NCBI RefSeq assembly: GCF_902459655.1
Contig: NZ_CABPSB010000015.1
Coordinates: 85,184 to 149,183, forward strand
Length of the DNA stretch: 64,000 nucleotides
Source: Pandoraea anhela
Lineage (GTDB): Bacteria > Pseudomonadota > Gammaproteobacteria > Burkholderiales > Burkholderiaceae
Reading direction: 5' to 3'
Part shown: piece after piece, positions 32,801 through 46,317 of the stretch
Numbering within the stretch: position 1 is the first letter of the stretch
How the letters are laid out: each line of letters starts with the position of its first letter
Notes under the pieces: generated by a model
What the model was told of the DNA's origin: nothing
What the model saw: only the letters and a program-made list of their open reading frames with translations
The model's database searches: none
Position numbers and translations under genes: made by a program

Positions 32801-33251
32801 ACGATTCCGGCATGTAGACGCCTTGCACCGACGTGCCGTTTCCCGTGAGCAGCACGCCCGCGGCACTCGCCACGATGTTCACCGTGCCGTTGGCGATATA
32901 GAGGGCGTCGTTGGGGGCGCCGGCGCGAAAGTCCGACGTCACCGACACCTGTCCCGGGATGCCGAGATTCGGGTTGATCGTGACGTTGGCGCCCCGAAAC
33001 ACCGCGATTCCCGCACCACCGAGTTGGGGTGGGTAGGGCGGCACCGGGTGGATGGTGACACTGCCCTGAATCTCGCCCACGGGAACGACGCTGCCGTCGT
33101 AATACTGTTCGTAAGGGAGTACGGTGCCCGACGTGATGACGGGCAACGGGTAGGTCTGCGCCCGGGCTGCACCGATGGACACAAACACCAGAGCGACCGC
33201 CATCGCGAGAGGACGACGACGCGGCATACGTTCGCGCATTGCATGGGTCAC
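29805..33251 (-). CDS. Type V autotransporter with beta-helix passenger
   Basis: The 1148-residue protein has a signal peptide ending near ARA-Q (about residue 32). A long passenger follows (about 33-800), rich in short Ser/Thr/Gly/Asn repeats such as TTGVNGNLGLNAESGG and TVNLLRSSATG, typical of a pertactin-like beta-helix. A Pro/Glu-rich linker (PEEPGTPGGEIEAPVPPD) leads to an autotransporter beta-barrel (about 870-1148) ending in GAKYLF with a terminal aromatic residue. I chose the GTG at 33251 because AAGGAG lies six bases upstream; ATGs at 33239 or 33227 are alternatives. It probably acts as an adhesin or surface protein. It is monocistronic, with 296 bp upstream. Confidence 0.9.
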   Translation of the reverse strand: MTHAMRERMPRRRPLAMAVALVFVSIGAARAQTYPLPVITSGTVLPYEQYYDGSVVPVGEIQGSVTIHPVPPYPPQLGGAGIAVFRGANVTINPNLGIPGQVSVTSDFRAGAPNDALYIANGTVNIVASAAGVLLTGNGTSVQGVYMPESSAGNSLLTGANVTIVTNGTTADGMRPYGATSTINLRDTSITVNGQDSWGVRSWGGSNITLTNSSIAANGTKVSGAGGVLVYNGSVATLNGDSTITTGVNGNLGLNAESGGTLNTNTDPGTAGTVTVSTTGAGSHAVRIGTAFGNLNRLRLSTTQNATYGLLVNGTSTVTGSQIAINTSGTSAYGMWISGSTTATLNGGSITTQGQTAYGLLSGSGAATVNLSDFAIATHGTQAHGIYGWTGSTTNFAGGSITTDQASTYGIYANAGTVNLLRSSATGAGTSITTTGTNAYAVRIQNGGLFNATGASIRASGAGTAAIVFDAPQTITGVTVSAPTPGLPTLPATTPLLSSSDPPPPLAIVTPVPAAPTDLGSDLVALAAGPLPGAHIAPVRAGGYNMTLQDTTVTSDSGVALWGYGGIANVNLANSALNGGGGAINATTRSGIGANLNLDASHSTLTGRIYTDANSTSVVNLSNNSVWHVTATSNVTELNNTNSLLDFPVTSLLTAAPTSQGSYRNVTIGNNYVGNGGTVALNTYLNEGGALSNQYSDRLLIQGGASGSTVLQIKPTSGSPGRLTSPSGVITNDEGISVVQVAGASTFDAFRLAGGYVVAPNSPYEYRLYAYGPGSVHGTADAAQNLVSTGAGYWDYRLQSAYVSPEGPVDPEEPGTPGGEIEAPVPPDARREVAPQVASYLSAPAAFLQAGWVDMDSLHRRLGEVRDDRELGRDRGPGEMFMRGYGGGFKYRSNQSFQTYGYDMNADYGAIQVGGNLLKHFTEDGTWRFGAAGSMGWLHYEPNAIDGPSSTRASTYRLYGYGTYQSQKGWYVDGIVSVGWFNGRTTTDARGEVAPMRGNSYAASIEGGFPLALPYGMHLEPQMQFIGQHLAFGNMTDGDGLVVNIGAQNQVTGRLGVRLTRPFEIDTGRVTPYFGVDVIHAFVGGTGVQVGESLFQTGKYGDSMLFSLGVNSAQSDNFSLYGRVSYQKSFGTAGMRGVLVNVGAKYLF

Positions 33252-33547
33252 TTTAACTCCTTGGGGGATGGAGACAAGCAGACACATCGGAGGCAATACT
33301 CAATAGTACGAATCAATACACGCAGACAAGCGTCGCGTCATTGGCATCTTCGTTGGCAAACACTAAACCAATCGCACGGAAAACTACAGTGTGGCGGCAC
33401 CTCGAAATGCCGTCATCGCATCGCTTATCGTGAATCGGTCATTTATATTTTCGTTTCGGCGTACTTATCGTAATTTTAATTACCGAACTGTTGCTTTCTC
33501 GCTGCGACGTCGCACCGAACCGCGCGATCTCCGGCACGCCGCGCACG

Positions 33548-34480
33548 CTATTCCCGCGAAACCTTCATGATCGTCTCGTTCCACTGCGGCAGCCACGTCA
33601 GCAGAAATTCCGCGAAGCCTTGCGCCGCAGGCGATGCGGCGCGAGACATTGGACGATACACACAGACCTGACGAATCGTCTCCGGCGCGATCACCCGACG
33701 CATCACCAGCCCGAACGATGGCGCAAGCGCCGCCACATACCCTGGCGTCAGCGTGGCCGCCAGCCCCTGCGAGGCGATGCCGAGCGCCGTCGTCACGTTG
33801 TCTACGACATCGATGGAGGTAATGCGCGCGTCCGGGGGCGCCGACAAACGCATTTGCGCGACGCTGCGCTCGTGATCGCGCCCGGCGGCAACGAGCGGCG
33901 TGTCGCGCAGGTCGGTCCATCGCACCCGGCGACGTCGGGCGAGCGGGTGCGCCGGCGCGCACCACAACACCCACGGACTGTCGAACGCCGGGGCCCCGGT
34001 CACATGCACGCCCGTCGCGCGATTGGGGCCGATGGCGATGTCGATATCCCCGTTGGTCACGTGATCGATGAGTGCATCGACCGGCGTATCGACGACCCGC
34101 ACCACCACTTTCGGACGCGACGCCGTGTACTCGCGAATCGCCGCCGGCAACGCCATGCTCGCCAGCACCAGCGGCGCGCCCACACGCACGATGCCGGCGG
34201 CGCGATTGCGCAGGTCGTCGGCCGTTTTCTCGGCGGCCTGCACGTGCCGCAGCACCGACTCCGCCGACGCCAGAAAATCGCGTCCCGCACTCGAGAGCGC
34301 AACACGCCGCGTGGTGCGGTCGAAGATGCGAAAGCCGATCACCGACTCAAGCTCGGCGACCAACTGACTTACGGCGGACGAGGTGAGTCCCAGACGATTG
34401 CCCGCTTCGGCAAAGCTGTGCAATTCGGCGATGGCGACCAGGGCTTCGAACTGGCGCAGCGTGACACGGGTCAGGGGCAT
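33548..34480 (-). CDS. LysR-family regulator of the aromatic aminotransferase/hpa genes
   Basis: The 310-residue protein has the LysR winged helix (TLRQFEALVAIAELHSFAEAG, then GLTSSAVSQLVAELE) and a two-lobed effector domain from about residue 90. It is transcribed divergently from the aminotransferase gene. A 39-bp element in the shared gap (34497-34535) recurs upstream of hpaH at 43726-43764 in the same orientation. From this I infer that the protein binds both sites and controls both units. The effector is unknown; an aromatic pathway intermediate is likely. Confidence 0.93.
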   Translation of the reverse strand: MPLTRVTLRQFEALVAIAELHSFAEAGNRLGLTSSAVSQLVAELESVIGFRIFDRTTRRVALSSAGRDFLASAESVLRHVQAAEKTADDLRNRAAGIVRVGAPLVLASMALPAAIREYTASRPKVVVRVVDTPVDALIDHVTNGDIDIAIGPNRATGVHVTGAPAFDSPWVLWCAPAHPLARRRRVRWTDLRDTPLVAAGRDHERSVAQMRLSAPPDARITSIDVVDNVTTALGIASQGLAATLTPGYVAALAPSFGLVMRRVIAPETIRQVCVYRPMSRAASPAAQGFAEFLLTWLPQWNETIMKVSRE

Positions 34481-34496
34481 GAGGTTTCGATTATCA

Positions 34497-34535
34497 AGTT
34501 TCGCTTACGAATGGACCAGAATCGATTGATTGTTC
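34497..34535 (+). promoter_or_regulatory. Shared 39-bp regulator site upstream of the aminotransferase
   Basis: AGTTTCGCTTACGAATGGA followed by the 20-mer CCAGAATCGATTGATTGTTC is 33 of 39 identical to 43726-43764 (minus strand, upstream of hpaH). The last 20 bases are identical. It lies 106 bp before the aminotransferase start and just upstream of the lysR start. A half-site like ACAATCGATT occurs again at 34554-34563. The site is a candidate LysR-type binding site. Confidence 0.7.
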
Positions 34536-34641
34536 CGCAAAGGGGCGTCGCCCACAATCGATTTTCAAAATTCCCCAAGGCATTGTCCGACGGACCTTAC
34601 CTGCTGAGTTCATCCAGCATCGAGACGGAGCGAGATCCCCC

Positions 34642-35850
34642 ATGTTTTCCCACGTCGACGCCTATCCCGGCGATCCCATTCTCAGCCTGAACGAAGCCTT
34701 CGGCCACGACCCGCGCCAGCACAAGGTGAATCTGTCGATCGGCATCTATTTCGACGACGACGGTCGTCTGCCGGTCATGCAGGCCGTGCGCGAGGCGGAA
34801 TCGGCCATGCTCGCGGACATCGGGCCCCGGCCCTATCTGCCGATGGCGGGCTCGCCGGCGTATCGGGACGCGGTGCAGGCACTCGTGTTCGGCGAGGACA
34901 GCGCCGCTCGTCGCGAACGGCGCATCGCGACCTTGCAGACCCTGGGCGGCGGCGGCGCATTGCGGGTGGGCGCCGACTTCCTCAAGCGCTACTTTCCGCA
35001 CAGCACCCTCTGGATCAGCGATCCGAGCTGGGACAACCATCGGGTGGTCTTCGAGGGCGCGGGCTTCGCCGTGCAGTCTTATACGTACTACGACGACACC
35101 ACGGGCGGTCTGCGCTTCGACGCCATGATGGACACCCTCGGCGCGTTGCCGCCGCACAGCATCGTGCTGCTGCACGCGTGTTGCCATAACCCGACCGGCG
35201 TCGATCTGTCTCCGGCGCAATGGCAGGCGCTGGTACCGGTGCTGCGCGAGCGCGGCCTGATCGCGTTCGTCGACATGGCCTATCAGGGCTTCGGCGACGG
35301 GCTCGATGCCGACGCCTTCGCCGTACGCGCGCTGACGGACGCCGGCGTGCCGACCGTCGTCGCCAATTCGTTCTCGAAGAACTTCTCGCTGTACGGCGAG
35401 CGCTGCGGCGCGTTGTCCGTGGTTTGTTCGACGGCGGACGAAGCGTCACGCGTGTTCGGTCAACTGACGGGCACGGTCCGGGCGAACTACAGCAATCCGC
35501 CCACGCATGGCGCACGGCTCGTCGCACAAGTGCTGACGACACCGTCGTTGCGGCGCGCATGGGAGGTCGAACTCGACAGCATGCGCACCCGCATCGCCAC
35601 GATGCGCTCGCAGATTCACACGCGCCTCGCCCCCCATATGAGCGGCGAGACGCTGTCGCGTTACCTGTCGCGTTACGTCGCGCAGCGCGGCATGTTCACC
35701 TACACGGGGTTATCGGCGGCTCAGGCGGACACCTTGCGTGAGACGCACGGCGTCTACCTGCTTCGCTCCGGACGCATGTGCGTGGCCGGACTCAATACGC
35801 GCAACGTCGACACCGTGGCGCAGGCCATCGCAAGTGTGCTGACGCAGTGA
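34642..35850 (+). CDS. Aromatic amino acid aminotransferase
   Basis: This class I PLP aminotransferase (402 residues) resembles TyrB/AspC-type enzymes. It has SPAYRDAVQALVFG, the CCHNPTGVDL segment and the PLP lysine in SFSKNFSLYGER (Lys246). Such enzymes interconvert tyrosine or phenylalanine and the arylpyruvate with 2-oxoglutarate. Next to an hpa operon and an MFS carrier, a catabolic role on tyrosine-like amino acids is likely. The Shine-Dalgarno GGAG lies 11 bases before the ATG. The gene is divergent from lysR. Confidence 0.93.
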   Translation: MFSHVDAYPGDPILSLNEAFGHDPRQHKVNLSIGIYFDDDGRLPVMQAVREAESAMLADIGPRPYLPMAGSPAYRDAVQALVFGEDSAARRERRIATLQTLGGGGALRVGADFLKRYFPHSTLWISDPSWDNHRVVFEGAGFAVQSYTYYDDTTGGLRFDAMMDTLGALPPHSIVLLHACCHNPTGVDLSPAQWQALVPVLRERGLIAFVDMAYQGFGDGLDADAFAVRALTDAGVPTVVANSFSKNFSLYGERCGALSVVCSTADEASRVFGQLTGTVRANYSNPPTHGARLVAQVLTTPSLRRAWEVELDSMRTRIATMRSQIHTRLAPHMSGETLSRYLSRYVAQRGMFTYTGLSAAQADTLRETHGVYLLRSGRMCVAGLNTRNVDTVAQAIASVLTQ

Positions 35851-35903
35851 TCCACCGCGCAACGCACGCCGTGCACGCCCGCCACAAGCGCGCATCCAGG
35901 ACG

Positions 35904-35940
35904 CAAGCGTGTGCCGTGGCATGACCACGGCACACGCTTG
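35904..35940. repeat. 16-bp perfect inverted repeat between aminotransferase and MFS genes
   Basis: CAAGCGTGTGCCGTGG (35904-35919) pairs perfectly with CCACGGCACACGCTTG (35925-35940) around a 5-nt loop. It lacks a T run, so it may be a partial terminator or an mRNA-stability hairpin that sets the ratio of the two products. Confidence 0.65.
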
Positions 35941-36006
35941 GCATAGCCGCACCTCACCTAACCTCACATCACAAAAAGCTCGTCAAAAAACAAGACAGGA
36001 GACAAC

Positions 36007-37293
36007 ATGAACACGGCCTCGGCTACGGGCGTCCACCTCGACCTTGACGCCCCCTCTCACACCTGGCGCGCGGTGATATCCGCGTCTATCGGCAACGCGC
36101 TGGAATGGTTCGATCTCGTCGTGTACGGCTTCTTCGCCGTCACGATCGCCAAGCTGTTCTTCCCCACGCACGACGACACGACATCGTTGCTGCTCACGCT
36201 CGGCACGTTCGGCGTGTCGTTCTTCATGCGGCCGCTGGGCGCCATCGTCATCGGCGTGTATGCCGATCGACGCGGACGCCGCGAAGCACTCACGCTCACC
36301 ATCCTGTTGATGATGGCGGGCACGGCGATCATCGCATTCATGCCGACGTACGAGACCATCGGCGTGCTCGCGCCGATGGGCATCGTGCTCGCGCGCATGA
36401 TCCAGGGCTTTTCGGCGGGCGGCGAGTTCGGCAGTGCGACCGCGTTTCTGGCCGAGCATGCCCCGCAACGACGCGGCTTCTTCGCGAGTTTTCAGGTCGC
36501 GAGTCAGGGCTTGACGACGCTCCTGGCGGCTGGCTTCGGTGCCGCGCTCACGAGCACGCTGTCGCCGGAGCAGATGCAGAGCTGGGGCTGGCGCGTGCCG
36601 TTCCTGTTCGGTTTGCTGATCGGTCCGGTGGCGTATTACATCCGTCGTCATGTCAGCGAGACGCCCGAGTTTCTGGCGGCGGCGCCGACGCAGACGCCGT
36701 TGCGCGACACGCTGGAGCATCAGAAGGTGCGTTTGCTGCTGGCCGTCGGTGCCGTGGTCGTCGCCACGGTGTCGACGTATCTCGTGTTGTACATGCCGAC
36801 GTACGCGATCAGGCAGTTGGGCTTGCCGGCGTCGGTGGCGTTCGCGGCGACGGTGGCCACGGGCATCGTGCAGATGTTCCTGTCGCCGGTGGTAGGCGCG
36901 TGGTCGGATCGCGCAGGCCGCACGAAGCCGATGATGATCGCGGCAGCCTTATTGCTGGTGTCGATCTGGCCGATGTTCTGGTTACTCTCCACGTATCCGA
37001 GCTTCGGCATGATGCTCGCGTTGCAAACGCTGCTGGGCGTGCTGATGACGATCTACTTCGCGCCGCTGCCGGCATTGGCTTCGGAAATCTTTCCGGTGAA
37101 GACCCGCACGACGGGCCTGTCGCTGTCGTACAACCTGTCGGTCACGTGCTTCGGCGGTTTCGCCCCCTTCATCCTGACGTGGCTCATCAATGCGACGGGC
37201 AGCAAACTGGCCCCAAGCTTCTACATGATGGCCGCCGCCGCTGCCGGGTTGGTCGCCCTGAGTCAGGTGTACCGACACACCGGCGTACGCTGA
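36007..37293 (+). CDS. MFS transporter, metabolite:H+ symporter type
   Basis: The 428-residue protein has about 12 membrane segments and matches the MHS subfamily (alpha-ketoglutarate, proline/betaine and aromatic acid symporters). It shows NALEWFDLVVYGFFAVT in helix 1, DRRGRREALT in the 2-3 loop and GFSAGGEFGSATAFLAEHA in helix 4. The ATG follows AGGAG by five bases. It lies in one direction with the aminotransferase gene and is closed by a strong terminator, suggesting uptake of an aromatic acid or amino acid. Confidence 0.93.
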   Translation: MNTASATGVHLDLDAPSHTWRAVISASIGNALEWFDLVVYGFFAVTIAKLFFPTHDDTTSLLLTLGTFGVSFFMRPLGAIVIGVYADRRGRREALTLTILLMMAGTAIIAFMPTYETIGVLAPMGIVLARMIQGFSAGGEFGSATAFLAEHAPQRRGFFASFQVASQGLTTLLAAGFGAALTSTLSPEQMQSWGWRVPFLFGLLIGPVAYYIRRHVSETPEFLAAAPTQTPLRDTLEHQKVRLLLAVGAVVVATVSTYLVLYMPTYAIRQLGLPASVAFAATVATGIVQMFLSPVVGAWSDRAGRTKPMMIAAALLLVSIWPMFWLLSTYPSFGMMLALQTLLGVLMTIYFAPLPALASEIFPVKTRTTGLSLSYNLSVTCFGGFAPFILTWLINATGSKLAPSFYMMAAAAAGLVALSQVYRHTGVR

Positions 37294-37304
37294 TCGAAAG
37301 CCTG

Positions 37305-37336
37305 AAGGGGCACCGCCGAGGTGCCCCTTCTTTTTT
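37305..37336 (+). terminator. Terminator after the MFS gene
   Basis: AAGGGGCACC (37305-37314) pairs with GGTGCCCCTT (37320-37329) around 5 nt and is followed by CTTTTTT. It closes rightward transcription 12 bp after the stop. Confidence 0.92.
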
Positions 37337-37367
37337 GCGTTGTCGCTGCGCCACCGATTACCGCGAG

Positions 37368-38357
37368 TTACTGCGGATACAACCCGTGCGTGCGTCCGAA
37401 GAGGCGAGTGAGTCCGAGCAGCACGTCGATGTTCGGCGTCGGCACGGCCACGCGCCGGCCGATCTCCCGGACCACGCTCACCAGTGCGTCGAGTTCGATG
37501 GGGCGATTCGCTTCCACGTCCTGCAACATCGACGTCTTGAACGCTCCCAATTTCGCCGTCACCTCATGCCGATCTTCCGGCGACTGGTCGATCACGCAGC
37601 CGATCTTCGCGCCGATCTCCGCCGCCTCGCGCATCGCCGCCGAACAGAATTCGCGCACCAGCGGATCGCCAAGCAGACGGTCGATGGTCGCGCCCGTGAT
37701 CGCCGAGACCGGATTCATCGTCAGGTTGCCCCAGAGCTTGTACCAGATATCCCGTCTCACGTTCTCCGACACCGTCGCCTCGAACCCGGCACGCGTCAGC
37801 AATCCCGCCAGACGCTGCACGCGCTCGCTGCCGCCCCCACCCGGCTCCCCGATGATGAGCCCACGACCCATCTTGTGATCGACCAGCCCCGGCTCCGGCG
37901 TCGAGGCGCTCGCATGCACCACGCACCCGATCACGCTGGCCAGCGGTATCGTCTCACCGATCGCCCCGTCCGGATCGACGCTCGTCAACGGCGCATCGCC
38001 GAACGGCGCTACGCCTTTGCAGAACCACCACGGCACGCCGTTCATCGCCGGCAGCACGAGCGTGTGCGCGCCGAGCAACGGCTTGGCCGAAGCCGTTACC
38101 TGCGCCAGCGCAGGCCCCTTCACCGCAATCACCACCAGATCCTGCTCACCGAGCTTCGCGGCATCGTCGAGCGCGTGCGCCGCCGCGACCGGTGTGGTCG
38201 TAACTGACTCTCCCTGCCTCACGCGCCAGCCCCGCTCTCGCAGCGCCGCCAGCGTCGCACCGCGGGCGAGCGCGCTCACCTGCGCCTCGCCGGTCGCGGC
38301 AAGCTTCTGCCCGATCAAGCCACCGATGGCGCCTGCGCCAATGATCGTCACCTTCAT
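37368..38357 (-). CDS. Ketopantoate reductase (PanE/ApbA) family protein in the hpa operon
   Basis: The 329-residue protein has an N-terminal Rossmann motif (MKVTIIGAGAIGGLIGQKLA) and the C-terminal helical PanE domain with RDIWYKLWGNLTMNP, including the conserved lysine. PanE converts ketopantoate to pantoate with NADPH, but relatives reduce other 2-keto acids. It is the last gene of the hpa operon, 4 bp after the FAH gene, so a catabolic role on a pathway 2-oxo acid is plausible. It ends 31 bp from the MFS terminator, tail to tail. Confidence 0.92.
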   Translation of the reverse strand: MKVTIIGAGAIGGLIGQKLAATGEAQVSALARGATLAALRERGWRVRQGESVTTTPVAAAHALDDAAKLGEQDLVVIAVKGPALAQVTASAKPLLGAHTLVLPAMNGVPWWFCKGVAPFGDAPLTSVDPDGAIGETIPLASVIGCVVHASASTPEPGLVDHKMGRGLIIGEPGGGGSERVQRLAGLLTRAGFEATVSENVRRDIWYKLWGNLTMNPVSAITGATIDRLLGDPLVREFCSAAMREAAEIGAKIGCVIDQSPEDRHEVTAKLGAFKTSMLQDVEANRPIELDALVSVVREIGRRVAVPTPNIDVLLGLTRLFGRTHGLYPQ

Positions 38358-38361
38358 CCGT

Positions 38362-39324
38362 TCACTCCTGTTGCTGTGCCGCGAGACGATAGTTCTCCTT
38401 GAATCGCTCCGGTACACGTTCGTCGAAACCCAGCGCCACACGGCGCACTTCGGGACTGTCGCCCGGCGGATGCCCGACCCCGAGCGCCGCCGCCCGCGGC
38501 GCATCGATCTGCACCACACGGCCCGACAGACGTCCCAGCCCGGTGATCTCGCATTCGACGAGATCGCCCGCATCCACCGAGCGGGAATGGCACGGCGTGC
38601 CCATCAGGATCACGTCGCCCGGCGCCAGCGTGATGTGCCGCGCAATGTCCGCGATCACGTAGTGCGGTCCCCAGATCGTCTCGTCGCCAATATGCGCTTC
38701 CTGCACGACGCGTCCATTGCGATACGTGCGCAACGTCTGCTCGAACAGATTCACGCCTCGCACGATCCCCGGCCCGATGGGCAGCAATGTGTCCGCGCCC
38801 TTCACCCGCAACATCGATCCCTGATCGGTGTCGCGAAAGTCTTGCAATCCCATGTCCAGCGCCGCACAAAAGCCCTCGATGTAATCCCACGCTTCGTCCG
38901 GCAGGACATTGCGGCAGGTCCGCCCGATCACCACGGCGTACTCGCTTTCATAGTTCAGATACCGGCAATCGGCCGGTTTGAGGATCTGACCACCATGACC
39001 GTTGAGCGACGTCGGCGGTTTGGTGAAATACGTTGGCGTGTCCGTCGGCTTGGGCTTGTTGCGCGTCTCCATGCTACGCGAGCGATACGAGATATGCACC
39101 GCGATAATTTTCGACGGGGACACCGGGGGCAGATGCGTCACCGTCTGCGGATCGACGAGACGGCCGTCGTCGAGCCGCAGCATGCCCGGTCGCTCGCCCT
39201 GCGCGTCGTCCGCCTCGACGATCGTGCCCCAGAATGCGCTGCCCCCCAGCAGAATACGACGCCGCTCGACGCGCGGCCCGCGCATCACGGCGGGCAATTC
39301 CTGAAACGGAAACTCGAAGTCCAT
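38362..39324 (-). CDS. Fumarylacetoacetate hydrolase family protein (HpaG-like)
   Basis: The 320-residue protein is of the FAH fold, with the acidic metal site in LNYESEYAVVIG, FCAALDMGLQDFRDTDQG, and MGTPCHSRSVDAGD near the end. In this operon it should act as the decarboxylase of 5-oxopent-3-ene-1,2,5-tricarboxylate in the homoprotocatechuate route. E. coli HpaG has two FAH domains (isomerase plus decarboxylase); here there is one domain, and the isomerase is not seen. The isomerase may lie elsewhere or be done by this enzyme. Confidence 0.85.
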   Translation of the reverse strand: MDFEFPFQELPAVMRGPRVERRRILLGGSAFWGTIVEADDAQGERPGMLRLDDGRLVDPQTVTHLPPVSPSKIIAVHISYRSRSMETRNKPKPTDTPTYFTKPPTSLNGHGGQILKPADCRYLNYESEYAVVIGRTCRNVLPDEAWDYIEGFCAALDMGLQDFRDTDQGSMLRVKGADTLLPIGPGIVRGVNLFEQTLRTYRNGRVVQEAHIGDETIWGPHYVIADIARHITLAPGDVILMGTPCHSRSVDAGDLVECEITGLGRLSGRVVQIDAPRAAALGVGHPPGDSPEVRRVALGFDERVPERFKENYRLAAQQQE

Positions 39325-39336
39325 CGTCTTGCCTCG

Positions 39337-40200
39337 TCAAACGGTATCGAACCAGATATGCACATTGCCCGTGCCGCGGGCGTTCTCGTAATCGGAGAGC
39401 ACCGTTCCTGCACTGCGGCATTCGGCGCCACCGAGCGCCCCGACCATCTGCAAGTAGTGAGCCCCATGCGCCTCCCACGGCCGCTTCCGGTAATCCGTAT
39501 CCCAGTCCGCCAGAATCCGGTCGTGACGTCCCTCGCGAAACGCCTCGATCGCGCGCTTGTCGCTCTCGATGTTCTCCGGACGCGACACGTTGCTCTCGTG
39601 AAAAATGCGCGGATGATTCGGCTTCCAGTCGATACCGTTGAATTTATGGCTCAACGCGCCGGACGCCAGCATCACCACGCGCAGATCGCTGCGGCGAATC
39701 GCTTCGCCGATCACCTCGCCCGATTGCAGGAAGTGATGCGTCTCGCAGTTCTGGCAGGAACTGACCGTCACGATGGGCCACGCGTCGAGTCGCATCTGCT
39801 TGATGACGTTGATCGTCGGGTAATGGCGAGGCAGATCGGGATGCTGCACTGCCCGAGCCCGCACGCCGCGCTCGCGCGCCACCTCGTCGACAGCCAGCGC
39901 CAGCGCCGGATGCCCGCGATAGTCGTACGGCACGCCGTGCAGATACCACGGCATTTCGTCAGAGACATACATGCCCGAGTAGTGCGCGCCGCCGTCGATC
40001 AGGTGATAGCCGGTGGTGAACCAGTGCGAATCGAAGATCATGACGACATCCGGACGCACCGCCGCGATACGTTCCCGCACCCGTGCATAACCGGGGATCA
40101 GATCCGAATCCGCTCCCGCGCCCTGCAACACACGAAACTCCTCACACTGCATCAGGCCGGGGTGATGCGACACCAACGCCGCGCCGACGATCTGTCCCAT
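39337..40200 (-). CDS. hpaD: Class III extradiol dioxygenase (HpaD-type)
   Basis: The 287-residue protein is a LigB-type dioxygenase, with iron-ligand histidines in ALVSHHPGL and an acidic/histidine segment MIFDSHWFTTGYHLID. The length fits homoprotocatechuate 2,3-dioxygenase of the E. coli class III type. It cleaves 3,4-dihydroxyphenylacetate with Fe(II) and O2 to 5-carboxymethyl-2-hydroxymuconate semialdehyde. It is 12 bp before the FAH gene and 78 bp after hpaE in transcription order. Confidence 0.9.
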   Translation of the reverse strand: MGQIVGAALVSHHPGLMQCEEFRVLQGAGADSDLIPGYARVRERIAAVRPDVVMIFDSHWFTTGYHLIDGGAHYSGMYVSDEMPWYLHGVPYDYRGHPALALAVDEVARERGVRARAVQHPDLPRHYPTINVIKQMRLDAWPIVTVSSCQNCETHHFLQSGEVIGEAIRRSDLRVVMLASGALSHKFNGIDWKPNHPRIFHESNVSRPENIESDKRAIEAFREGRHDRILADWDTDYRKRPWEAHGAHYLQMVGALGGAECRSAGTVLSDYENARGTGNVHIWFDTV

Positions 40201-40278
40201 AGTGTTCTCCTCTCATCCTGTGGTAACGAGGGCCGCCGCGCGCCGGCGTCGGCCCGATGGAAGCTCGATGCCGGGCGT

Positions 40279-41754
40279 TCAGCGATGGCTGAAGCTGGCT
40301 TTGAACGGTTGTTTCGGCACGACGATATCCTTCACGTCGCAGAAAAATTCGAAGCTCCAGCCGCCGCCTTCACGACCGACGCCCGAACGTTTGATCCCGC
40401 CGAACGGCGCGGCCAGATCGCGAATGCCGAAGCTGTTGATCCAGAGGAACCCGGTGCGAACGCGCTCGGCAATCGCGATGGCGTGCGCTTCGTCGCCGTA
40501 GCAAACGCCACCGAGCCCGTAGTCGGTGCCATTGGCCAGATCGACGACTTCCTCGTCGCTCGTAAACGTCTGCAACGTGAGCACCGGACCGAAGACTTCC
40601 TGCTGCACGATTTCGTCTTGCTGACGCAGGTCGGTGAGCAGCGTCGGCGCGAAGTATTGCGCACCGAAAGGGTGAGCCGTGCCGCCCCACAGCACGCGCG
40701 CCCCGCCGGCCACGGCACGGTCGACGAAGGCCTGCACGCGTTCGAGCTGGCGCGGGTGGATGATCGGGCCGACCTCGGTCGCCGCGTCGCGCGGATCGCC
40801 CACGACGAGATGCGTCACCACGTCGCGCAACTTCGCGGTGAACGCCGGCGCGATGTCCGCATGGACGAGCAGCCGCGTGCCCGCGAGGCATACCTGACCG
40901 GCATTGCGATACATCAGCGCGGCGGTGGCGGCGGCGGCATCGAGATCGGCGTCGGCCAGCACGATGAATGCCGACTTGCCGCCTAGTTCCAGACTGCAAG
41001 GCACGAGGTTCTCGGCGGCCGTCTTCGCGATCCATTTCGCGGTCGCGACCGACCCCGTGAACGAGATGCGTGCGAGTCGCGCATCGCTCACCAACGCCGC
41101 CCCGGTCACGGCGCCCTCCCCCTGCAACAGATTGAAGACGCCGGGCGGCAGTCCCGCTTCGTGTGCACAATCCGCGAGCAGCGATGACGTGAGCGGCGCC
41201 CACTCCGGCGCTTTGAGCACCACGGTATTGCCCGAGGCCAGCGCCGGACCGATCTTCCACGTCGCAAGCATCAAGGGCGAATTCCAGGGCGTGATCACGG
41301 CCACCACACCCGCCGGATCGTGACGCACGAGATGGCGCGCCTGTGGCGTCTCGATCACCCGCTCCTGCAACGTGAGTGCGTGCTCGGCGAACCAATCGAT
41401 GTTCTGCATCGCACGCGGCACCACGCCGTGCGCCATGCGCGAGCGCAGCACACCGGCGTCGGCGCTCTCGAGCGCGGCGAACGCGTCGGCACGACGGCCG
41501 ATGGCCTCGGCCAGGCGCCGGAGATACGGCCGACGTTGTGCCGCACCGAGCGCCGCCCACGCGGGGAAGGCGTCCGACGCCGACGTCACCGCCGCATCCA
41601 CATGCGCCGGATGACCGCGCGCGATGTCGCCAAGGGGCGACTGGTCGATGGGGGATACGCACACGAATGTCTCGTCGGACGCCACACGACGCCCGTCGAT
41701 GTAGTGATCCGGCGACACCGATACGCCGGCTACCTGGATAGGGAGAGAGCTCAT
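40279..41754 (-). CDS. hpaE: 5-carboxymethyl-2-hydroxymuconate semialdehyde dehydrogenase
   Basis: This 491-residue NAD-dependent aldehyde dehydrogenase has the Glu motif LELGGKSA and the catalytic Cys in NAGQVCLAGTR, with ITPWNSPL and FGGIKRSGVGREGG near the ends. By operon context it oxidises the ring-cleavage semialdehyde to the diacid. The ATG at 41754 is preceded by a GAGA-type ribosome binding site; the open frame continues to 41943 but carries no homology. Confidence 0.92.
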   Translation of the reverse strand: MSSLPIQVAGVSVSPDHYIDGRRVASDETFVCVSPIDQSPLGDIARGHPAHVDAAVTSASDAFPAWAALGAAQRRPYLRRLAEAIGRRADAFAALESADAGVLRSRMAHGVVPRAMQNIDWFAEHALTLQERVIETPQARHLVRHDPAGVVAVITPWNSPLMLATWKIGPALASGNTVVLKAPEWAPLTSSLLADCAHEAGLPPGVFNLLQGEGAVTGAALVSDARLARISFTGSVATAKWIAKTAAENLVPCSLELGGKSAFIVLADADLDAAAATAALMYRNAGQVCLAGTRLLVHADIAPAFTAKLRDVVTHLVVGDPRDAATEVGPIIHPRQLERVQAFVDRAVAGGARVLWGGTAHPFGAQYFAPTLLTDLRQQDEIVQQEVFGPVLTLQTFTSDEEVVDLANGTDYGLGGVCYGDEAHAIAIAERVRTGFLWINSFGIRDLAAPFGGIKRSGVGREGGGWSFEFFCDVKDIVVPKQPFKASFSHR

Positions 41755-41810
41755 GCCATGTCTCTTTGCGAAGGATCTCTGGGAAGCGGATGACGCACAC
41801 GCTCGCATCG

Positions 41811-41850
41811 CGCCGAATTGTGCGAAATTGCGCGGAATCTCGCGGAATTG
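41811..41850. repeat. 10-bp imperfect repeat, four copies, between hpaI and hpaE
   Basis: The segment reads as CGCCGAATTG, TGCGAAATTG, CGCGGAATCT and CGCGGAATTG, i.e. four related 10-mers. It lies in the 100-bp gap between the end of hpaI and the start of hpaE. Confidence 0.7.
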
Positions 41851-41854
41851 CACG

Positions 41855-42640
41855 CTAAGCGCTCGCGCCGTCGGGGCCGGCAAACTTCGCGGCCAGTGTC
41901 CGGCTCGCATTCGCGAGCAACGTCGTGTCGACGCCCACCGCAATGAACGTCACCCCAAGGGCGAGGTAGTGACGGGCCAGCGTCTCATCGACACACAGAA
42001 TCCCCGCAGCCTTGCCTGCATGACGGATACGGGCAATGCCATCCTCGATCGCCTTGCGCACCTCTGGATGCGTTGCCTGACCGAGGTGTCCCATCGAGGC
42101 CGCGAGGTCGGCCGGCCCGATGAACACGCCGTGCACGCCGTCAACGGCGGCGATCTCGTTGACCTGCGCCAGCGCATCGGCCGTCTCCACCTGCACGAGC
42201 AGACACGTCGTGTCGTTCGCGGCATGCAGATAGTCCTCGTAACGATTCCACCGTGACGAGCGCGCCAGACCGCTGCCCACGCCGCGTGTGCCTTGCGGCG
42301 GATAACGCGTGGCGCTCGCCAGATCGCGTGCCATGGCGGCAGACTCGACCATCGGCACGAGCAACGTCGTCGCGCCGATTTCCAGCACCTGCTTGATGAG
42401 CGCCGCATCGCCATGCGGCAAACGCACCACCGGATGCGTCGGATAAGGAGCGACGGCCTGCAACGTCGCGAGCATGGTGCGCAGATCGTTGGGCGCGTGT
42501 TCGCCGTCGATCACCAGCCAGTCAAAGCCGCTGCCTGCGCAGAGCTCGGCGGCATAAGGCGTTGCGAGCCCCATCCATAAGCCGATCCGACGCTTGCCTT
42601 GTGCCAGCGCCTGTTTGAACGCATTCGGAGGTGTTTTCAT
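41855..42640 (-). CDS. hpaI: 4-hydroxy-2-oxo-heptane-1,7-dioate aldolase
   Basis: This 261-residue class II (metal-dependent) aldolase of the HpcH/HpaI family has [11 protein letters not shown] and [15 protein letters not shown] with its metal-binding glutamate, and [17 protein letters not shown]. It splits the last six- or seven-carbon intermediate to pyruvate and succinic semialdehyde. The ATG at 42640 follows GGAG by eight bases. An in-frame open region upstream translates repeats and is not part of the gene. Confidence 0.92.
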
Positions 42641-42674
42641 GGGATTAGCTCCATTGCACTCGCAGTGCTTGATG

Positions 42675-42790
42675 TGATCGCTTGGTTCGATTGGCTTGAT
42701 CGGCTCGATCGGTTCGGGTGGCGGATTGGCCCCGGTCGGCCCCGGTCGGCCCCGGTTGGCCCCGGTTGGCCCCGGTTGGCCCCGGTCGGC
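42675..42790. repeat. Two tandem repeat arrays between hpaH and hpaI
   Basis: The gap of 208 bp holds 42675-42719, five imperfect 9-bp units such as GATCGCTTG and GCTCGATCG, and 42731-42790, six 10-bp units CCCGGTCGGC or CCCGGTTGGC. The second array is nearly perfect with C/T change at one base. Such arrays can vary in copy number and could alter hpaI mRNA leader structure. Confidence 0.92.
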
Positions 42791-42848
42791 GCGATTGCGT
42801 CGATGCATCGATGCAGTGGGCCGGCAACGATCCGGCCACGAACCGCCG

Positions 42849-43658
42849 TCAGACGAAGCGCACGCCGATCGCGCCGAGCGGGCCGTAGTCGGCGTGGAAG
42901 ACATCGCCCGCCGCGCACGCCACGGGTCGCGTGAACGACCCGGCCAGCACGATCTCGCCGGCTTGCAACCCTTCGTCGAAGGCGCCGAGCTTGTTCGCGA
43001 GCCAGGCGATGCCGTTGCCAGGATGATTCAGCACGGCCGCGCTCAGGCCCGACTCTTCGATCACGCCGTTGCGATAGAGCAGCGCGCCCGCCCAGCGCAG
43101 GTCGATGGCGTCGGGCCTGACAGGGCGCCCGCCGAGAACGATGGCCGCATTCGCGGCGTTGTCGGCAATGGTGTCGAAGACTTTGCGCGGCGCTTTGGTG
43201 TCGCGGTCGAACAATTCGATGCGCCCGTCGATGAGTTCGAGCGCCGGCGTAACCCACGCGGTGGCGTCGAGCACATCGAACAGCGTAACGCCCGGCCCCT
43301 TGAGCGGCTTGGCGAGAATGAACGCCAGTTCCACCTCCAGACTCGGCACGATGAAACGCGACGCCGCCAGCGTCGCGCCGTCGGCGACGAGCATGTCGTC
43401 GAGCAGCGTGCCGTGATCCGGTTCGGTGATCTGCGCCGCGACCTGCATCGCGCGCGAGGTCAGCCCGATCTTGTGACCGATCACGCGACGCCCCTCGGCG
43501 AACTTCAGCGCCAGCCACGCCTGAGAAATCGCGTAGCTGTCGGCAATCGTCATTTCGGGGTAGCGGCGCGAGAACTGCATCACGGGCGTGCGCGTGCGCT
43601 CGGCCTCGTGCAACTCGCGGGCAAGGGCCTGATGGGTCGAGGCGTCGAGCTTGGGCAT
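42849..43658 (-). CDS. hpaH: 2-oxo-hepta-3-ene-1,7-dioate hydratase
   Basis: The 269-residue protein is a FAH-fold hydratase like HpaH/MhpD, with [14 protein letters not shown], the acidic motif [16 protein letters not shown] and [11 protein letters not shown]. It hydrates the dienoate formed after decarboxylation. As the first gene of the operon it lies next to the predicted regulator site at 43726-43764, 67 bp upstream. The Shine-Dalgarno GGAG lies eight bases from the ATG. Confidence 0.92.
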
Positions 43659-43725
43659 CTCGGTGTCTCCGGTTATCGTGGTGCGTCGTCTGAGAGACGC
43701 TTATTCTTGCGGTCTGCCACGCCGT

Positions 43726-43764
43726 GAACAATCAATCGATTCTGGGCGATTGATAAGTAAAACT
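43726..43764 (-). promoter_or_regulatory. Shared 39-bp regulator site upstream of hpaH
   Basis: On the minus strand it reads AGTTTTACTTATCAATCGC followed by CCAGAATCGATTGATTGTTC, 33 of 39 identical to 34497-34535. It contains a perfect dyad, ATCAATCG and CGATTGAT separated by 8 bp (43731-43738 and 43747-43754). A further dyad ATCGGTTT/AAACCGAT lies at 43839-43846 and 43865-43872. Otherwise the 484-bp gap (43659-44142) has no gene; a 76-codon frame at 43732-43962 is not convincing. Confidence 0.7.
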
Positions 43765-44006
43765 GGATAATCCGTCGCCCACCGTCGACGCCCCTGCCTC
43801 CCGCGACACGCCAACTGTCGCATCGCCGCCACAGATCAATCGGTTTAATGAATCAGGATCGATAAAACCGATCATTGGCACTTCCTCCGACTTTTCCCAA
43901 TTTTCGAGGCCTTTTGCGCTATAACATCGCGCTTTCTCGGCAGTGACCTGCCTTGCAGCCACTTTTTACGCGCAATCGCTACCATCGCTCGCTTATCCCC
44001 ATCAAA

Positions 44007-44031
44007 AATGAGAGTGATTTGCATTTATAAT
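44007..44031 (+). promoter_or_regulatory. Fur-box-like site overlapping the TonB receptor promoter
   Basis: TGAGAGTGATTTGCA (44009-44023) matches the Fur 7-1-7 consensus at 10 of 14 bases. It is directly followed by a perfect TATAAT (44026-44031). No strong -35 is seen, as the site lies where it should be. It implies repression when iron is plentiful. Confidence 0.6.
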
Positions 44032-44142
44032 CCGCGACGCATTATTACAACGTATTACTCGAAACGATTCGACTGCCGCTGCCTCGCGTCTCTAACAGCG
44101 GTGCCGCACGCCACACATTTGCAGTTACGAAGGTCAGCCAAG

Positions 44143-46317
44143 ATGAAGATGTCCGTAAGTCGCCGTGCTCGAGCGGCCGCCGATGCCGCCAGCGTCCAAG
44201 GTATTCACCGCTTCGCTTCCCATCCCCGTCTTCCCCGCACCACCGCCTGCGCCGCAGCGCTGCTCATGGCAACGCTCGGCGCGGCTCACGCGCAGCAGGC
44301 AGAGAGCGCCGCCGAAGCGAAGGCCGATGTCGAGCTCGGCGCCGTCAACGTGTCGGGCGACTGGCTCGGCACGGGGCTGGACAACAGCGCCAAGACGTTC
44401 CCCGGCGCGCGCACGGTCGTGAAGAAGGAGCAGATCGAGGCGTCAGGCGCGGCGAGCATCGGCGACGTTATGCGCCGCATTCCCGGGGTGCAGGCGACGG
44501 ACAACTCCAGTTCCGCCGGCAGCGCGATCTCGCTGAACATCGGCGTTCGCGGTCTCGCGGGCCGTTTCAGCCCGCGCTCGACGGTATTGCTCGACGGCAT
44601 TCCGCTGGCCGTGGCCCCTTACGGCCAGCCGCAACTGTCCTTCGCGCCGGTGAGCCTTTTCAACATCGAGAGCATCGACGTGGTTCGCAGCGGGGGCGCG
44701 GTGCGCTATGGTCCGCAAAACGTCGGTGGCGTGATCAACTTCAAGACACGCTCGATTCCGAGCACGTCGGGTTTGACGGCGGACGCCACCGTTCGCGAGA
44801 ACATTTATACGACCGGCGGCGGCGCCAACACGCAGTACGGACTGTTCCTCGGCACGCAAATGGATAACGGTCTGGGCCTCGCCCTGCTGTATTCCGGCAT
44901 GGTCGGCCGCGACTGGCGCACGGGCAGCAATGAAAATGTGAACGACGTGGCGTTGAAATGGCGATACGACATCACGCCGAGCCAGCAGGTGTACGGCAAG
45001 ATTTCGTACTACGACGCCAAGTCGAAGACCCCCGGCGGCCTGAGCGTTGCGCAGTACAACGCCGATCCGTTCCAGAACACGCGTCCGAACGACTACTGGA
45101 GCGGCAACCGCACCGGTCTCGACTTCGGCTACCTGAATACGATCTCCGACACGCAGGAATTCGAGATCCGCACGTTCTACAACGAAAGCTACCGCCAGAG
45201 TTCGCTCACCAACCTGTCGGTGCTGCCGCTCGTCACGATTCACCAGCCGCGCAACTACCAGACGTTCGGTATCGAACCGCGCTACACCCAGCGCCTGTTC
45301 TTCGGCCCCACGGCACATGACGTCACGGTGGGCTATCGCTTCATTCGCGAACGTGGCGACGACAACAACTTCAACGTCAATGTCGCGAACGGCAAGACGT
45401 CGACGACAACCACGTTCTACAACTACACGAGCGCCAACGCCTTCTACATCGACGACCGTATGGCATGGGGCAATTGGCGCTTCACGCCCGGCGTGCGTTA
45501 CGAATTCATCGCGTCGCAGCGCGTCGACAAAGCCTCCGGCAACACCTTCCGCACGGATAACAACAAGCCGCTGCCCTCGGTGAATCTGTCGTACCTGGTC
45601 AATAGCGCATGGACCATCTTCGCGGACTACAGCACGTCGTTCGGGCCAGTGCAGAACACGCAACTGAACTCGATGTCGGCAACGAACCCGCTACAGCCGG
45701 AAGTCGCCCGGACCTATGAAATCGGCACGCGCTGGACGGATGCCCGCTGGAAGGCCGAGCTTACGGCCTTCAAGATGAAGTTCGACAACCAGATTCTCCA
45801 GGTGCCGAACGTCAGCCCGGCGACCTTCCAGAACATCGGCGCGACGAATCACGACGGTATCGAAACCGCGCTCGATTACACCTTCGACCGGGACAGCGTG
45901 CTGCGCGGCCTGAACCTTTACGCGAACTTCACGTACGTGCGCGCTATCCAGAAGTCGGGGGCGACTGCGGGTCTCGACGTGCCGTTCTATTCGCGCTTTA
46001 CCGACACGCTCGGCGCGCGCTACGCGATCGGTCAGTGGACGTTCAACGTCTCGACGACGCACCAAAGCTCGCAATACGCCGACCTCGCGAACACCGAGGC
46101 ACAATCGGCGGACGGTACCAACGGCAAGGTGCCGGGCTACCGCGTGTGGAATTTGCAGGCGATGTACAAGTTACCGTTCTACAAGAACGCCGATATCACG
46201 GTGGGGCTGAACAACGTGTTCGACAAGCGCTTCTATACGCGCAACACCGACCAGAATGGCGGCATCATGGTGGGCGCGCCGCGCATGGTCTATGTGCAAG
46301 GGCACTTCGGGTTCTGA
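44143..46317 (+). CDS. TonB-dependent outer-membrane receptor (siderophore type)
   Basis: The 724-residue product has a signal region (MATLGAAHAQQ), a plug domain (GAASIGDVMRRIPGVQATDN, SLNIGVRGL and VVRSGGAVRYGPQNVGGVINF) and a 22-strand-type barrel ending VQGHFGF with a terminal Phe. It resembles FecA-like iron-chelate receptors. Ligand unknown. The ATG at 44143 follows AAGG at nine bases. A Fur-like box overlaps the promoter. It is divergent from the hpa operon, so a role with catechol iron chelates is an interesting but unproven idea. No TonB/ExbBD or FecIR genes are adjacent. Confidence 0.92.
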   Translation: MKMSVSRRARAAADAASVQGIHRFASHPRLPRTTACAAALLMATLGAAHAQQAESAAEAKADVELGAVNVSGDWLGTGLDNSAKTFPGARTVVKKEQIEASGAASIGDVMRRIPGVQATDNSSSAGSAISLNIGVRGLAGRFSPRSTVLLDGIPLAVAPYGQPQLSFAPVSLFNIESIDVVRSGGAVRYGPQNVGGVINFKTRSIPSTSGLTADATVRENIYTTGGGANTQYGLFLGTQMDNGLGLALLYSGMVGRDWRTGSNENVNDVALKWRYDITPSQQVYGKISYYDAKSKTPGGLSVAQYNADPFQNTRPNDYWSGNRTGLDFGYLNTISDTQEFEIRTFYNESYRQSSLTNLSVLPLVTIHQPRNYQTFGIEPRYTQRLFFGPTAHDVTVGYRFIRERGDDNNFNVNVANGKTSTTTTFYNYTSANAFYIDDRMAWGNWRFTPGVRYEFIASQRVDKASGNTFRTDNNKPLPSVNLSYLVNSAWTIFADYSTSFGPVQNTQLNSMSATNPLQPEVARTYEIGTRWTDARWKAELTAFKMKFDNQILQVPNVSPATFQNIGATNHDGIETALDYTFDRDSVLRGLNLYANFTYVRAIQKSGATAGLDVPFYSRFTDTLGARYAIGQWTFNVSTTHQSSQYADLANTEAQSADGTNGKVPGYRVWNLQAMYKLPFYKNADITVGLNNVFDKRFYTRNTDQNGGIMVGAPRMVYVQGHFGF

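Follow-up and report, generated by a model that had tools for sequence, protein, structure and literature searches.

A 47-bp element shared by two promoter regions of Pandoraea anhela: a putative LysR-type activator box of an hpa-like regulon

Within a 64,000-nucleotide stretch of the Pandoraea anhela genome (contig NZ_CABPSB010000015.1, positions 85,184 to 149,183; the window), a 47-bp element occurs twice: between the divergent genes of a LysR-type regulator and an aromatic amino acid aminotransferase, and upstream of hpaH, the first gene of an hpa-like operon. The element is most probably the operator and -35 region of promoters that the LysR protein (gene at 33548-34480) activates; we put the probability of this reading at about 85%. 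On the best reading of the comparative data it would be a LysR-type activator box that was duplicated in Pandoraea, joining the aromatic aminotransferase and a transporter to the hpa-like regulon.

Two copies of the element in the window and in the genome

The preliminary description of the window had reported a 39-bp match between 34497-34535 (+) and 43764-43726 (-), with 33 identical bases, 20 of them in one uninterrupted run. The match is as reported but was understated: it extends further upstream to 47 bp, with 40 of 47 bases identical (Table 1). The distances between element and start codon, 106 bp for the aminotransferase (ATG at 34642) and 67 bp for hpaH (ATG at 43658), were both correct, and each copy is followed after 17 bp by a -10-like hexamer (CACAAT and AAGAAT, respectively). 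A chance repeat had been considered very unlikely, and the counts bear this out: allowing up to three mismatches, a 19-bp core has two matches in the window, where 100 shuffled sequences have 0.01 on average, and none elsewhere in the 6,046,012-base genome. The next best 39-mers of the window, on both strands, reach 22/39 with the first copy as query and 23/39 with the second.

For wider searches, a profile of 70 positions (R1) was built from 43 sites, 20 of the 44 distinct Pandoraea 70-mers and 23 outgroup sites; genome scans scored the 150 candidates ranked highest in a first look, and sites with an expectation value (E) of 8e-15 or less were called strong. In the 6.05 Mb genome, the two window sites have R1 matches of 1.1e-16 and 2.4e-15, and no other match is better than 0.4. 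The genome therefore holds two good sites, and the many unrelated dispersed copies against which the preliminary description had warned were not seen.

Distribution in the genus

Orthologues of the LysR protein were called at 1e-60 among the best 37 candidates of each genome. They are present in 27 of 32 Pandoraea genomes, and the same 27 carry hpaH with at least 92% identity; all 17 named loci with a LysR protein of 88-95% identity are from Pandoraea. Three of the genomes that lack the orthologue (G024, G025 and G029) hold only an hpaH of 61-62% identity, and the other two (G003 and G015) have none at 1e-60. The 32 genomes have 50 strong sites: two in each of 23 genomes, one in each of four (G004, G020, G023 and G028) and none in five. 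These five are exactly the genomes without the LysR orthologue, and their best R1 matches have E values of 0.07-0.38. The training sites match R1 by construction, so the informative parts of this result are the co-occurrence with LysR and the absence of other sites. When the Pandoraea loci are compared, the hpaH element stands out as a conserved island within an otherwise diverged gap. Third sites in G010, G011 and G027 are partial matches of 24 bases (E about 0.24) and were taken as chance; the one in G027 (L138) lies, by our reading, between open reading frames resembling a DEAD-box helicase and a LysR protein.

Probable loss of the aminotransferase and state of the lysR-side site

The cluster aminotransferase (86-100% identical) is found in 22 of the 27 LysR-bearing Pandoraea genomes. 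It is absent from G002, G004, G020, G023 and G028, which at 1e-170 have no match other than a copy elsewhere in the genome with 68-70% identity. On a tree of lysR and hpaH the five absences need three changes, and we infer that they are losses. The lysR-side site is intact in all 22 genomes that have the aminotransferase, with matrix scores of intact lysR-side sites being at least 79.0. Among the genomes without the aminotransferase, it has decayed in G004 (36.6), G020 (29.0) and G028 (35.7) and is gone in G023 (-75.1); the association between aminotransferase and intact lysR-side site has a Fisher p of 0.0003, uncorrected for relatedness. The hpaH site is intact in all 27 genomes, including the five that have no cluster aminotransferase. 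As the lysR-side site tracks the presence of the aminotransferase, this copy seems to be kept for the aminotransferase unit; the hpaH copy seems to be kept with lysR regardless of that unit.

The element in other genera

Outside Pandoraea, 27 loci were found via the LysR protein, some of them short. In 20 of these, lysR is directly divergent from the hpaH of an operon of the same type, and in one it is divergent from hpaE; none of the 27, short ones included, has an aminotransferase or major facilitator superfamily (MFS) match at 1e-15. In the window, lysR is instead divergent from the aminotransferase gene and hpaH is not adjacent to it. Since a lysR divergent from hpaH with one element in between is the commonest arrangement outside Pandoraea, it is probably the older one.

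To score these loci, a matrix was made from the 50 Pandoraea sites only, excluding the lysR-side sites of G004, G020, G023 and G028. It was applied to 25 of the 27 loci, the excluded ones being L133 (partial LysR match, no hpa match) and L136 (30% identity); for L113, L123, L125, L126 and L131, the 220 bp upstream of lysR were scored in place of the lysR-hpaH gap. The site upstream of lysR ranks first of the whole locus, on both strands, in 21 of the 25 loci and second in two more (L121 and L130), and in these 23 loci none of 200 shuffles reaches the score of the site.

R1 was further used to search seven genomes, of which five had a site in R1 and two, G061 (L131) and G062 (L126), had none. 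In G061, a Rubrivivax metagenome-assembled genome, one site precedes hpaH at L158 (E 1.0e-6), in the cluster that also holds lysR some 9 kb away, and another precedes a second hpaH on another contig (L168, E 1.3e-4). In G062, a site precedes hpaH on another contig (L163, E 5.8e-4). No lysR match was found within 1.5 kb at L163 or L168. Two further matches have other neighbours: a site in G061 (L162, E 6.1e-6) is flanked by a second LysR homologue (63%) and by an open reading frame with, by our reading, a metallo-beta-lactamase-like HxHxDH motif, and a partial site in G062 (L159, E 1.7e-6) precedes a LigB-like dioxygenase gene (27% to HpaD), 5.5 kb from lysR. A weaker site similar to that of L159 is present on another contig of G062 (L169, E 0.0088); these two sites may point to a second dioxygenase in some regulons. 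At L121, a panE homologue beyond lysR has a separate, weak element (E 0.096), which was not used in R1.

A different regulator could bind the element, such as a second LysR protein or a MarR repressor of the HpaR type, and the neighbouring lysR would then be a bystander. HpaR is proposed for the hpa cluster of Burkholderia xenovorans LB400 and reported for Escherichia coli strain C (PMC3053370, in the part available to us), and the P. anhela genome does contain a MarR gene that passes the HpaR cut-off of 121.2 bits with 145.4 bits (G000:C21:5598-5984, L178) as well as a LysR paralogue with 51% identity (contig C14). We consider this explanation improbable: the strong sites are found in the 27 Pandoraea genomes with the LysR orthologue and are absent from the five without it, and in other genera the element sits in the lysR-hpaH gap itself. 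The HpaR-like gene is away from the hpa operon and, in the 3.4 kb examined, adjoins apparent branched-chain-type ABC transporter genes. The paralogue (C14:33815) has no R1 match at E 10 or better nearby; it was rejected as a co-user of the site, as its upstream DNA lacks the element by eye and its neighbours are different.

Promoter anatomy

In the alignment of the 43 sites that make up R1, the invariant columns are ATT at positions 2-4, G40, TTGT at 42-45 and two A of the -10 hexamer; the spacer between the -35-like and the -10-like hexamer is 17 bp in 39 sites and 18 bp in four. In both window copies, a candidate activation contact overlaps the -35-like hexamer TTGTTC (Table 1).

The strongest dyad, a candidate for the primary contact of the LysR protein, is centred differently in the genus and in its relatives. 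The six top dyad windows of the 23 outgroup sites overlap one another and are all centred at position 13, which corresponds to -64 when the -10 hexamer is placed at -12 to -7 (the start site is assumed). The pairs of this dyad (5-11/15-21) are kept at 0.51 in the outgroup sites, and at 0.66 in the 14 of them with A at position 8; the recognition dyad of the outgroups may lie near -64. In Pandoraea it may instead lie near -46.5, at the centre of a dyad of 8-8-8 bases that had already been noticed in the hpaH copy and is present there, by sequence reading, at 43754-43731. Its pairs are kept at 0.93 in the 27 Pandoraea hpaH sites, at 0.66 in the 23 lysR-side sites and at 0.36 in the 23 outgroup sites: it is the strongest centre within the genus but weak outside, and as a general recognition site it is unsupported. 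The T-N11-A motif is found in the window copies at element positions 11 and 23, off centre (sequence reading).

The lysR-side copy also overlaps a possible -10 hexamer of lysR (complement of 34490-34495, sequence reading), and negative autoregulation of lysR is therefore likely. Repression of the own gene is usual for the LysR family (PMC4834489, in the part available), and together with this overlap it could mean that LysR acts at both sites mainly as a repressor or autoregulator and not as an activator of two units. This is less probable still than binding by another regulator: the constant spacing between the -35-overlapping contact and the -10 hexamer fits activation, no consensus promoter is found at either element, and where the aminotransferase is gone the lysR-side site has decayed or been deleted in four of five genomes though lysR is retained, so that autoregulation alone seems not to keep the site. 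Two similar copies 9 kb apart might also suggest a dispersed repeat, or a duplication of recent date, that has no regulatory function. This can be dismissed, as core and R1 searches give two sites in the genome, the hpaH copy is an island of conservation and the same element is present in other genera.

A second stretch, CGCCCACAATCGATTTTCAAA (34548-34568), shows up as largely conserved when the 23 intact lysR/aminotransferase gaps are compared; it overlaps the proposed -10 hexamer and resembles part of the main 47-bp element.

Proposed regulation by the LysR protein

In the regulation that we propose, the LysR protein would sit on the element as a tetramer, bound to its upstream half and touching ATTGnTTGT over the -35 hexamer. 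When a small inducer from the pathway shifts the latter contact, RNA polymerase would be able to initiate at the -10 hexamer, 17 bp further downstream. As the element is present twice in Pandoraea, one LysR protein would drive both the hpa-like operon (hpaH-hpaI-hpaE-hpaD-hpaG-panE) and the separate aminotransferase-MFS unit. Control of both units by this protein had been suggested in the preliminary description, and it is well supported by the comparison, namely by the co-occurrence within the genus and by the divergent lysR-hpaH pairing with the element in other genera; the sites before hpaH in G061 and G062 and the lysR-side decay in genomes without the aminotransferase support it further.

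Several observations weigh against activation by LysR as we propose it. The Pandoraea genomes are related and their counts are not independent, and the absence of LysR from five of them refers to the best 37 candidates per genome. G002 has no aminotransferase but keeps an intact lysR-side site, beside what we read as an apparent aminotransferase remnant. In other genera, two of the 25 scored loci (L126 and L131) have no site next to lysR by the matrix, and two of the five matches below 1e-3 in G061 and G062 are not before hpaH (L159 and L162). The dyad at -64 is weak in Pandoraea (0.45 of pairs on the lysR side, 0.34 on the hpaH side), where position 30.5 is the centre of the strongest dyad on both sides, and it is kept at only 0.21 in the six outgroup sites with C at position 8. 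T-N11-A is not found at the position-13 centre, with positions 7 and 19 being C and A in both window copies. Finally, a consensus promoter scanner detects no promoter at either element, and the assignment of the -35 and -10 hexamers therefore rests on conservation and spacing.

The preliminary description had also proposed one regulon for an aromatic amino acid. This may be so: the aminotransferase is of the TyrB type, which makes an aromatic amino acid a plausible substrate in Pandoraea, but among the loci examined it belongs to the cluster only in this genus (22 of 27 LysR-bearing genomes, against none of the 27 loci outside) and the core operon occurs in relatives that lack it. HpaD, HpaE and HpaG, moreover, are below the curated homoprotocatechuate cut-offs. 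The neighbouring genes of the relatives (for TctC-type binding proteins, a GlcD-like flavin adenine dinucleotide oxidase and aldehyde dehydrogenases) gave no firm answer on the substrate. A wider scenario, which we offer tentatively and at somewhat less than even odds, is that a LysR regulon of many Burkholderiales and one Thalassobaculum controls a non-canonical meta-cleavage pathway; in Pandoraea, duplication of the operator would have brought in a transporter and a dedicated paralogue of the aromatic aminotransferase, so that the pathway would begin further upstream, at an aromatic amino acid or its keto acid. Several species would later have lost this extension, with the operator decaying.

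Comparison with known systems

In LysR systems, a recognition site is described near -65 and an activation site near -35 (the PnpM and ThnR papers, PMC5603801 and PMC4834489, in the parts available to us). The overall extent of the element and its overlap with the -35 hexamer fit this layout, and the best dyad centre of the outgroup sites would fall close to the described recognition site if the -10 hexamer is placed as above. Like these activators, the Pandoraea system has a divergent regulator gene, an element from about -76 to -30, a conserved -35 stretch and one proposed regulator for more than one promoter. Unlike them, it has no T-N11-A at the position-13 centre and its strongest dyad lies near -46.5; the -35 contact itself is well conserved, the target genes are others, and the system is known from sequence alone. 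The proposed regulon would have the layout customary for LysR proteins and would add an example to a familiar kind of gene control. Among named LysR proteins of NCBIfam and the PDB, the window protein matches GltC with 122.3 bits, PsrA with 106.5 bits and a hydrogen peroxide-inducible genes activator (6g4r) with 70.4 bits, sharing family and domain layout with them.

The cluster of B. xenovorans LB400 is hpaG1G2EDFHI with a putative HpaR gene adjacent, and that of E. coli W is hpaGEDFHI (PMC3053370, same part). As in these clusters, the HpaH and HpaI proteins of the window are above the equivalog cut-offs and HpaD, HpaE and HpaG are related; in contrast to them, the latter three fall under the cut-offs, HpaG has one FAA-hydrolase domain, a PanE-like gene is added and a LysR gene replaces the adjacent HpaR gene. 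In Pandoraea, meta-cleavage of 4-hydroxyphenylacetate was suggested from a protein expressed on lignin, and the available part of that paper mentions a LysR gene in a different, protocatechuate cluster (PMC5987411). No LysR-hpa regulon of the kind described here was found in the titles and abstract openings listed from open-licence papers or in that part of PMC5987411.

The system offers a defined operator, a regulator and two target promoters that are open to direct testing, as well as a natural series in which the operator is kept, decayed or deleted along with the gene it served. It also proposes a regulator for the hpa-like operon in Pandoraea and other genera.

Genes at the locus

After the symporter, the minus-strand genes follow in the order hpaH-hpaI-hpaE-hpaD-hpaG-panE, read from hpaH (Table 1). 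The operon is an hpa-like meta-cleavage operon and not a proven homoprotocatechuate pathway. The HpaD-like protein is the sole match to TIGR02298 in the genome. HpaB has a single TIGR02309 match, on another contig (357 bits, cut-off 480.2), and for HpaF, the CHM isomerase, PF02962 has no match in the genome and none in the control genomes either. For the LysR protein, the best 25 of 49 NCBIfam matches are all far under their cut-offs.

Table 1 Positions of the elements, promoter motifs and genes in the window
Feature	Position	Strand	Basis
47-bp element in lysR/aminotransferase gap, reads toward aminotransferase	34489..34535	+	Intact in 23/27 LysR-bearing Pandoraea genomes
47-bp element upstream of hpaH, reads toward hpaH	43726..43772	-	Intact in 27/27 LysR-bearing Pandoraea genomes
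Candidate primary recognition site: interrupted dyad centred at element position 13 (positions 2-24), about -64 of aminotransferase promoter	34490..34512	+	Best outgroup dyad centre
Position-13 dyad stretch at hpaH promoter	43749..43771	-	Sequence conserved, yet dyad weak (0.34 of pairs)
8-8-8 dyad, centre at element position 30.5 (about -46.5)	43731..43754	-	Strongest dyad centre in Pandoraea sites
Candidate activation contact CGATTGATTGTTC over -35-like TTGTTC (34530-34535)	34523..34535	+	G40, TTGT 42-45 invariant in 43 sites
Candidate activation contact and -35-like TTGTTC (43731-43726), hpaH promoter	43726..43738	-	Column conservation in 43 sites
-10-like CACAAT, aminotransferase promoter, 17 bp from TTGTTC	34553..34558	+	Conservation, spacing
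-10-like AAGAAT, hpaH promoter, 17 bp from TTGTTC	43703..43708	-	Conservation, spacing
LysR-type regulator, proposed binder of both elements	33548..34480	-	HTH_1 62.5 bits (cut-off 26.6), LysR_substrate 109.1 (28) (Pfam)
Aromatic amino acid aminotransferase, TyrB type, proposed regulon member	34642..35850	+	NF006719 563.6 bits (cut-off 377); best solved match 4wd2 TyrB
MFS metabolite/H+ symporter, downstream of aminotransferase	36007..37293	+	MFS_1 above cut-off; TcuC 380.5 bits, below cut-off 445
PanE-like reductase, last gene of hpa-like unit (start by open reading frame)	37368..38357	-	Domain matches
Single-domain FAA hydrolase, HpaG-like	38362..39324	-	PF01557 above cut-off; TIGR02303 166.6 bits, below 276.4
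HpaD-like LigB extradiol dioxygenase	39337..40200	-	TIGR02298 134.8 bits, below 315.95; best solved match 8iq8
hpaE-like aldehyde dehydrogenase (start by open reading frame)	40279..41754	-	TIGR02299 472.5 bits, below 638.35
hpaI aldolase, start at MKTPP methionine (by open reading frame)	41855..42640	-	TIGR02311 384 bits (368.8), above equivalog cut-off
hpaH, 2-oxohept-4-ene-1,7-dioate hydratase, first gene of second unit	42849..43658	-	TIGR02312 430.5 bits (351.5), above equivalog cut-off

Between hpaI and hpaH lies a tandem array of 6.3 copies of GGCCCCGGTC (42728-42790). Downstream of lysR there is a large open reading frame, autotransporter-like by our reading (29805-33296, -), with a match in 6 of the 17 named Pandoraea loci. 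Divergent from hpaH is the gene of a FecA-like TonB-dependent receptor (44008-46317, +), which is below the FecA cut-off and above that for TonB siderophore receptors; it adjoins hpaH in 12 of the 17 named loci, some of the others ending before the receptor position.

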